Assembly (NCBI GenBank): GCA_903925075.1
Contig: CAIYDQ010000298.1
Coordinates: 1 to 57,041 of the forward strand
Source: an uncultured Geobacter sp.
GTDB lineage: Bacteria > Desulfobacterota > Desulfuromonadia > Geobacterales > Geobacteraceae
Length of the DNA stretch: 57,041 bases
Direction of reading: 5' to 3'
Part shown: piece after piece, positions 11,709 through 41,302 of the stretch
How the letters are laid out: every line of letters starts with the position of its first letter
Position numbering within the stretch: position 1 is the stretch's first letter
The notes under the pieces: model-generated
Database searches by the model: none
Seen by the model: the letters and a program-made list of their open reading frames with translations, nothing else
What the model was told of the DNA's origin: nothing
Made by a program: the position numbers and the translations under genes

Positions 11709-11739
11709 AAAAAGGCCCCCCGTGCGGGACAGGGGGCCT
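11709..11739 (-). terminator. Intrinsic terminator of micropeptide gene 1
   Basis: AGGCCCCC pairs with GGGGGCCT (11713-11720 with 11732-11739), followed on the minus strand by TTTTT. A second hairpin (11750-11757 with 11766-11773, GCCCGCCG arms) lies between it and the peptide, and includes the last base of the stop codon. Confidence 0.85.
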
Positions 11740-11772
11740 CTGGGGGCACGCCCGCCGTTTGCATGCGGCGGG

Positions 11773-11835
11773 CTAACTAGGGCAACCCTCTTTGCAGCGG
11801 GTAACCGGGCGAATCATATAGAAGTTAGTCCACAT
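11773..11835 (-). CDS. Micropeptide 1 of the MWT-IRPV-CKEGC family (20 aa)
   Basis: The peptide reads MWTNFYMIRP VTRCKEGCPS. It shares MWT, IRPV and CKEGC, at the same positions, with the 20-residue product of 41173-41235 (12 of 20 identical). AAAGGAGAT lies 8-9 nt before the ATG. A TTGACT/TATCAT promoter stands upstream, and a stop-codon hairpin plus an intrinsic terminator stand downstream, so it is a complete monocistronic unit. Two cysteines spaced CxxxC and the absence of a signal peptide or membrane helix suggest a cytoplasmic peptide or a modified (RiPP-like) precursor. No maturase lies in the window. Alternatives are a regulatory upstream ORF or a small RNA whose peptide is incidental, but conserved residues with changed codons argue for translation. 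Function unknown. Confidence 0.75.
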   Translation of the reverse strand: MWTNFYMIRPVTRCKEGCPS

Positions 11836-11903
11836 TTCTTCGATCTCCTTTTCGCTGTTGGATTTAAATCCCTCGCGCGGTGCGCTTCCCCGAGGTTGGA
11901 CCA

Positions 11904-11932
11904 ATGATAGTCCCTGACTTATGAGAAGTCAA
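11904..11932 (-). promoter_or_regulatory. Sigma70 promoter of micropeptide gene 1
   Basis: TTGACT and TATCAT on the minus strand are separated by 17 bp. Transcription would begin near 11897, about 62 nt before the ATG. TGACTT and AAGTCA (5 nt apart) form a palindrome overlapping the -35 box, a possible operator. Confidence 0.8.
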
Positions 11933-41108: not shown

Positions 41109-41141
41109 CAAAAAAGCCCCTGTATTTCTACAGGGGCTTTT
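41109..41141. terminator. Terminator of micropeptide gene 2
   Basis: AAAAGCCCCTGTA (41112-41124) pairs with TACAGGGGCTTTT (41129-41141). On the minus strand it ends in TTTTTT. As in gene 1, a hairpin over the stop codon (CTAGCCCG 41149-41156 with CGGGCTAG 41169-41176) precedes it. Confidence 0.9.
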
Positions 41142-41172
41142 CGTTGCTCTAGCCCGCCGATGACTCGACGGG

Positions 41173-41235
41173 CTAGATACTGCAGCCTTCCTTGCAGTGT
41201 GATACAGGGCGAATACGGAATCTAGAAGTCCACAT
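41173..41235 (-). CDS. Micropeptide 2 of the MWT-IRPV-CKEGC family (20 aa)
   Basis: The peptide reads MWTSRFRIRP VSHCKEGCSI, colinear without gaps with the peptide at 11773-11835: MWT, I-R-P-V and CKEGC are invariant. AAAGGAGAT, identical to gene 1, lies 8 nt before the ATG. A sigma70-type promoter (41274-41302) gives a 32-nt leader, and a stop-codon hairpin and terminator follow. The DNA differs at several synonymous sites (for example TGCAAAGAGGGT against TGCAAGGAAGGC for CKEG), which supports selection on the peptide. It lies upstream of marR but behind its own terminator, so no regulatory link is assumed. Function unknown. Confidence 0.78.
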   Translation of the reverse strand: MWTSRFRIRPVSHCKEGCSI

Positions 41236-41273
41236 TGGCGTATCTCCTTTCAGTCAGAATATCTGCAGGGGTT

Positions 41274-41302
41274 ATGTTACTACTCTTGATACCTCGCGTC
41301 AA
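41274..41302 (-). promoter_or_regulatory. Sigma70 promoter of micropeptide gene 2
   Basis: TTGACG and TAACAT on the minus strand are separated by 17 bp. CTTGA-N9-TCAAG overlaps the -35 region as a weak palindrome. Confidence 0.75.

Follow-up and report, generated by a model that had tools for sequence, protein, structure and literature searches.

The window, a 57,041-nucleotide stretch of Geobacter DNA analyzed here at its full length, carries two minigenes, copies A and B (Table 1). As the initial annotation had described, each lies on the minus strand and encodes a gap-free 20-residue peptide, the two peptides are identical at 12 of 20 positions, and their CKEG stretches differ by synonymous changes. 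It had also given each copy a sigma70-type promoter with a 17-nt spacer, the same ribosome-binding site, and a terminator of its own, and all of these parts were found again; the promoter-like sites lie 69 to 97 nt (copy A) and 39 to 67 nt (copy B) 5′ of the start codons. The neighboring genes differ, as first noted: copy A lies beside a DUF362-ferredoxin gene and an SLT/LysM transglycosylase (mltD-like) gene, and copy B beside a gene for a MarR regulator. Compared with shuffled sequences, the hairpin region of copy A folds as drawn with a z of only −1.0 (−3.8 for a longer stretch that includes the terminator), and that of copy B folds far better (z −6.7).

Table 1. Positions of the minigene parts in the window and of three viral-contig pseudoknots in their own loci
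Feature	Positions	Strand	Basis or detail
Copy A ORF MWTNFYMIRPVTRCKEGCPS*	11773..11835	−	last conserved codon Cys18 (TGC) = 11784-11782
Copy A sigma70-like promoter TTGACT-17-TATCAT	11904..11932	−	promoter scan, consensus 10/12
Copy A Shine-Dalgarno AAAGGAGAT	11843..11851	−	read in sequence
Copy A hairpin GCCCGCCG-CATGCAAA-CGGCGGGC	11750..11773	−	begins 8 nt past Cys18; overlaps stop codon
Copy A U-tailed terminator	11711..11741	−	terminator scan
Copy B ORF MWTSRFRIRPVSHCKEGCSI*	41173..41235	−	Cys18 codon = 41184-41182
Copy B sigma70-like promoter TTGACG-17-TAACAT	41274..41302	−	promoter scan, consensus 9/12
Copy B Shine-Dalgarno AAAGGAGAT	41242..41250	−	read in sequence
Copy B hairpin GCCCGTCGA-GTCA-TCGGCGGGC	41152..41173	−	begins 8 nt past Cys18; helix extendable outwards by 4 bp
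Copy B U-tailed terminator AGCCCCTGTA-GAAA-TACAGGGGCT + T's	41115..41138	−	read directly; absent from the scan's list
Pseudoknot beside tRNA gene, L223	4411-4436	−
Pseudoknot beside tRNA gene, L280	4474-4499	+
Pseudoknot beside tRNA gene, L247	9861-9886	−

When the 6.55 Mb assembly was searched at E up to 10, copies A and B were the sole two matches. Neither peptide scored above a curated cut-off in Pfam or NCBIfam, neither matched PHROGs (which has no curated cut-off of that kind), and Rfam gave no match to the window DNA at gathering scores. In the open-license literature the core strings HCKEGC, RCKEGC, AHCSEGC, IPRVAHC, RPVSHC, and RPVTRC were not found, pseudoknot strings occurred only in papers unrelated by title, and no title named the minigene family. 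The initial remark that no described family with this motif was known is in line with the family libraries and literature searched. By eye, copies A and B and the family sequences lack the hydrophobic membrane-spanning stretch that is a hallmark of type I toxins.

Distribution and anatomy of the family

Relatives of the two copies are of two types, with a hairpin following the peptide in Geobacterales and kin and an H-type pseudoknot following it elsewhere in the phylum. (The order, phylum, and genus names of matched genomes are in part those in the titles of sequence records.) With copy A as the query, all 58 related genomes gave a match, with best E values at or below 0.0014, and copies A and B are therefore no chance matches. 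Of 195 genomes of the class, 102 matched at E at or below 0.05, comprising 94 of 97 from the same order and 8 of 98 from outside it, where 73 of the unmatched genomes were placed outside the order from sort order. At the same threshold, 13 of 18 congeners had two matches and 5 had one. A scan for V[ST][HR]CKEGC in one genome per species returned 154 relatives, and the 80 of these that were listed were Geobacter-like, Desulfuromonadales, or unspecified Delta- or Proteobacteria records; the reach beyond the phylum consists of this one scan, and the pseudoknot type was searched for within the phylum and in viral contigs. A plasmid collection searched at E up to 10 matched neither window peptide, which is a weak test for 20-residue queries, and relatives of the hairpin-type peptides were not found in viral contigs.

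A profile built from 16 peptides and run over 395 genomes of the phylum matched 55 genomes with E no higher than 0.1, and chance probably accounts for many of these. Twenty loci were fetched after peptide searches (19 from the profile search and 1 from the related-genome search), and 16 of them proved to be of the pseudoknot type. The covariance model built from these 16 loci matched 67 of the 395 phylum genomes at E at or below 0.01 and 75 of the 195 class genomes at E at or below 0.001. Copy A of the window is also among the hits of this model (E 1.8e-6), so that the hairpin and pseudoknot types find each other. Seven same-order genomes carry an extra copy of the pseudoknot type, MLRKRYQLRAIAHCKEGC or close to it.

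Every one of 120 distinct hairpin-type copies has AAGGAG ahead of the start codon and a terminator within 140 nt (7% in shuffled sequences), and 103 of 119 have a sigma70-like promoter within 110 nt (9% in shuffled sequences); both sets of shuffles preserve base composition only. Because the 36 pseudoknot-type copies have GGAG in 32, a terminator in 22, and a promoter in 17, good support for an independent transcription unit is confined to the hairpin type.

Peptide conservation ends at Cys18

The core is present in all 151 loci found by peptide, which represent 120 distinct elements. For codons 9 to 18 of 64 distinct sequences we measured a pS of 0.59 and a pN of 0.05, hence a pN/pS of 0.085 (0.26 for codons 2 to 18); finding loci by peptide similarity favors conserved ones, and the high synonymous divergence is independent of that selection. 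Control frames shifted by 1 and 2 gave pN/pS values of 2.4 and 1.4. Together with the promoter, Shine-Dalgarno sequence, and terminator seen across the family, these values uphold the earlier proposal of independent transcription units selected for the peptide.

The conserved part of the peptide closes with H/R-C-K/S-E-G-C, the last conserved codon being that of Cys18, and the residues beyond it are unconserved. In the 120 distinct hairpin-type copies the stop codon lies 6 nt past Cys18 in 76, 18 nt in 34, 21 nt in 5, and further in 5, and the tail past the last Cys is 0 to 8 residues long in most copies. Codon 19 encodes Pro in 84 of the 120 without being fixed, and in five pseudoknot-type copies it is the stop. 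The proposed family of 20-codon genes is real and larger than was stated, but its product is no fixed 20-mer, because the stop codon moves. In some copies Cys18 is replaced by His or Ser.

Several observations concern single groups of copies. Cys18 is encoded by TGC in 120 of 120 hairpin-type copies and Cys14 by TGC in 96 and TGT in 24, the copies being related to one another. Three copies from one genus (L032, L038, and L039) reach the hairpin without an in-frame stop, and as this hairpin carries a T-rich tail of its own, their mRNA may lack a stop codon. A divergent subfamily, MRW[ML]FPHATHCS[ATS]CGS (L202, L203, L205-L208, and L343-L356), has one residue inserted in the motif, and the pseudoknot still follows 8 nt after it. 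A TGA beside Cys18 in L154 raised the possibility of a SECIS element and selenocysteine, but other copies have TAG or a sense codon at that position and we dropped this reading; the minigene structure is also unlike a bacterial SECIS.

An RNA structure is locked 8 nt after Cys18

The main point, which the initial annotation missed, is that an RNA structure is locked 8 nt past Cys18, the codon at which peptide conservation ends. Among the 120 hairpin-type copies, which were selected on the peptide only, 119 have a stem of at least 5 contiguous bp starting exactly at +8, with a mean length of 8.3 bp, and all 120 have the letters GC there. For offsets 0 to 7, stems of 5 bp or more begin in 1 to 33 of the 120 copies; at offsets −6 to −3, which are coding sequence, such stems start in 66 to 110 and are shorter (mean at most 5.2 bp). 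At inner positions of the hairpin the paired bases change together, the fifth pair, for example, being GC in 96 copies, AT in 12, and CG in 8; the set used for pair types was filtered on G at +8 and has two copies of another kind inside it, so that its own count of 122 of 122 at +8 is circular.

The pseudoknot-type element is an H-type pseudoknot, GUC-C-YGRGCA-N-GAC-7 nt with AAA-UGCYCA. We aligned 51 of 52 copies, leaving out L211, whose pseudoknot is one base shorter, and in the resulting 49 distinct rows 93.2% of the cells pair. Cells with a double change numbered 30, against a shuffled mean of 10.2 and 0 to 9 in slid controls, whereas further pair types fell below the shuffles (6 versus 7.1) and the two outer pairs of stem 2 fail in 16 and 13 of the 49 rows. 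The spacing between motif and pseudoknot was 8 in 58 of 58 copies where the pattern found both parts (52 of 52 before later copies were added), a count in which the copies found by the covariance model (R1) are biased to 8. A less biased sample is that of the 20 loci fetched after peptide searches, in which all 16 pseudoknots stand at a spacing of 8. In a second approach with less bias, from the RNA, the pseudoknot pattern alone gave 56 matches in 50 of the 395 phylum genomes, and in 30 of the 34 loci examined out of these 56 an in-frame peptide ends 8 nt upstream; the reversed pattern had no match among the matches listed. The letters of the spacer vary while its length is constant, although the fixed spacing may be partly inherited because the copies are homologous. 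Both the amino-acid sequence and the RNA structure are conserved.

In 115 of the 120 hairpin-type copies, and in 51 of 58 of the pseudoknot type, the stop codon overlaps the structure or sits inside it. At the common offset of 6 the third base of the stop is the first base of the stem, so the hairpin must open for this stop to be decoded. Exceptions to the arrangement are L204, in which the motif is in another frame relative to the pseudoknot, and L212 and L169, in which a motif-like peptide has no pseudoknot. In L221 the reading frame is disrupted inside the motif and the pseudoknot is kept, and in a few other bacterial copies (L370-L373, L399, and L216-L218) the pseudoknot stands with a degenerate peptide motif or none. 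Small riboswitches in Rfam resemble the pseudoknot type in being compact H-type pseudoknots with an A-rich loop, yet an Rfam search of 13 loci at a relaxed E-value gave no match over the element.

The pseudoknot recurs in viral contigs near translation stops

The pattern GUCCYGRGCANGACNNNAAANNGCYC, an H-type pseudoknot of 26 to 27 nt, occurs in at least 120 stretches of viral contigs. We fetched 80 of these loci (L222-L301, e.g. L233, L249, and L250), which contain 81 matches. A complementary 4-bp stem 2 is present in 80 of the 81, and the reversed pattern had 0 matches in viral contigs; on both counts we reject a chance origin. In 50 of the 81 matches (61.7%) the stop codon of a long reading frame starts 6 to 26 nt upstream, compared with 6.4% of random positions, and in 21 there is no such stop within 60 nt. 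Measured from the first base of the stop, the commonest offset is 9 (13 cases) and none is closer than 8; the viral pseudoknot thus begins 5 or more nt, most often 6, past the stop codon. Rfam gave no match over the pseudoknot in five viral loci. Used as a blastn query, the element gave 140 matched records, mostly weak, at E up to 10, and among those that align across the pseudoknot are named phages of Nostoc, Mycobacterium, Lactobacillus, and Microcystis. In three of nine loci scanned a same-strand tRNA gene follows the pseudoknot at a distance of 5 to 10 nt (Table 1).

Genomic neighborhood

Neighbor families were named from single members and otherwise by sequence clustering, and gene calls are naive longest ORFs. 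Of 71 loci, 34 have a same-strand DUF362-like frame upstream, and other copies have unrelated neighbors. In raw counts from some families outside the order, the pseudoknot type lies near a geranylgeranyl-reductase-like FAD protein in 9 loci, and 8 loci, one of them of the hairpin type, lie near a PDZ/metal-resistance-like protein; raw counts also place 8 loci, 6 of the pseudoknot type, near hemerythrin and 4 near a PrdB/GRDB-like protein. Seven loci (L158, L163, L190, L191, L195, L200, and L219) combine the geranylgeranyl-reductase-type FAD protein, the PDZ/metal-resistance-like protein, and the minigene, with a hemerythrin frame in 5 of the 7. Six of the seven extra same-order copies lie 84 to 149 nt (to the end of Cys18) behind a same-strand gene, encoding a nitroreductase-ferredoxin, an ArsM-type methyltransferase (two cases), an FMN-reductase-like protein, a TetR-type regulator, or a CMD/AhpD-like protein. 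By eye, a MoaA-like radical-SAM frame lies 0.5 to 4.1 kb from the minigene in L032, L036, L155, and L162. NCBIfam selenoprotein names for some neighbors were left unused, as their scores were far below the cut-offs.

Of 153 hairpin-type loci, 96 have the next gene on the same strand and 56 on the opposite strand; for the pseudoknot type the corresponding numbers are 36 and 13 of 51 (naive calls, repeats included). Downstream of the hairpin type both the gene and its strand vary, so no one gene in cis is a constant partner. With 36 of 51 next genes on the same strand, the pseudoknot type may have a role in cis.

Discussion

For a family with demonstrated coding selection, hairpin-type anatomy, and a structure locked to its reading frame, the explanation that we favor, at a probability of about 0.4, is a free-standing ribosome-pausing minigene, possibly linked to redox or metal state. 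Both the peptide and the interval between it and the structure seem to be under selection, and this points to an event that takes place on the ribosome at Cys18. Structures that stimulate recoding commonly stand 5 to 9 nt past the decoding site, at the site of mRNA unwinding, according to PMC5009743. The 8 nt past Cys18 correspond to such a decoding-site distance if Cys18 is in the A site, and leave 5 nt past the A-site codon if Cys18 is in the P site. In either case the ribosome would meet the structure at its mRNA entry site, where the conserved nascent peptide and the structure could jointly hold it at Cys18. As the stop usually overlaps the structure or lies inside it, finishing the peptide means unwinding the structure. 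The minigene may therefore switch between a paused state, with the structure folded and the peptidyl-tRNA held, and a completed state, with the structure melted and the peptide released. Because neither the kind nor the strand of the downstream gene is constant, the minigene would be expected to work in trans, through the peptide, the paused ribosome, or the RNA. From the Cys/His motif, and from recurrent neighbors of redox, hemerythrin, metal, and arsenic kinds, we speculate that the switch would read thiol, metal, or oxidant state.

The nascent-chain arrest peptides SecM, TnaC, and MifM offer the nearest comparison. Like them, the minigene product is short, is conserved as far as the residue that the P site would contain, and is often continued by Pro, as would fit a ribosome stopped on its own product; here conservation stops at Cys18, the putative P-site residue, and the tail is unconserved. 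Unlike them, the minigene has no constant gene in cis and no fixed stop, and the distance to its RNA structure never changes with the copy's sequence. The terms pseudoknot, Geobacter, and Desulfo were not found in the main text of a genomic survey of arrest peptides (PMC10987492).

The main rival, which we consider unlikely on balance, is an ordinary Cys/His microprotein whose peptide, once released, would use H-C-x3-C to bind metal or thiol-reactive compounds, while the 3′ structure would only stabilize the mRNA or aid formation of the 3′ end; indeed, the peptide could equally act after release. Strong amino-acid selection fits such a product, as do the His and Cys ligands and the copies with His or Ser in place of Cys18. 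Bacterial microproteins and metal-binding peptides likewise have their own promoter, a strong Shine-Dalgarno sequence, and a Cys/His motif, and some pseudoknot-type copies follow PDZ/metal-resistance, nitroreductase-ferredoxin, or ArsM-type methyltransferase genes or precede hemerythrin genes. However, the minigene differs from them in its open C-terminus and in a structure locked to the coding frame, and a microprotein leaves unexplained both the near-invariant 8 nt, across a spacer whose sequence varies freely, and the moving stops.

It is quite improbable that the RNA is the product, acting in trans or binding a protein as a hairpin or pseudoknot that translation only keeps exposed or stable. 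The pseudoknot sequence is conserved and common to viral contigs, and the few bacterial copies that keep it without the peptide motif would suit such a role, but in hairpin-type copies a plain hairpin with a variable loop replaces the pseudoknot while the peptide stays constant.

Two further possibilities are, in our estimation, very improbable. The first is a recoding signal, whose structure would drive frameshifting or stop-codon readthrough into a longer product. Stimulators of these events, as PMC5009743 presents them, match the minigene in spacing and structure type, being hairpins or H-type pseudoknots 5 to 9 nt past the decoding site. Yet by eye we saw no slippery heptamer at codons 17 to 19 and no conserved sequence past the structure in any frame, the nascent peptide being conserved instead, and in the hairpin type a terminator follows within 140 nt. 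The second is an orphan RiPP precursor whose modifying enzyme would be encoded at another locus, as a small Cys peptide with no fixed C-terminus and the MoaA-like radical-SAM frames near four loci would allow. Against it, conservation extends as far as the last Cys and is lost in the tail, whereas a leader would precede a selected core, and no dedicated maturase was found among the neighbors run against family libraries.

A leader peptide with an attenuator for the next gene would suit the terminator that follows, the same-strand next genes of many loci, and the 22 of 117 cases in which masking the 5′ arm of the first hairpin abolishes the terminator, but it is hardly credible, since downstream genes differ in kind and strand (56 of 153 on the opposite strand in hairpin-type loci) and the terminator still folds in the other 95 of 117.

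Within the favored pausing minigene, a more specific form, which on present sequences we put forward as doubtful, is a new kind of RNA-peptide switch in which a Cys/His nascent peptide, still within the ribosome, would decide whether a pseudoknot or hairpin at the leading edge of the ribosome stays folded. The pseudoknot would be a module that in phages follows stop codons and there always escapes the ribosome; the Desulfobacterota may have put it under the control of a sensing peptide, with a hairpin taking its place in Geobacterales.

The minigene family is carried by nearly every sampled genome of the Geobacter-like order and by many others in the phylum, and it has no match in the family libraries. 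Since the pseudoknot is also frequent in viral contigs, near translation stops, work on one would inform the other. If ribosomes do pause on it, the minigene would be a free-standing arrest gene that unites a nascent peptide with an RNA roadblock, and it would provide a simple system in which to test the cooperation of peptide and RNA.
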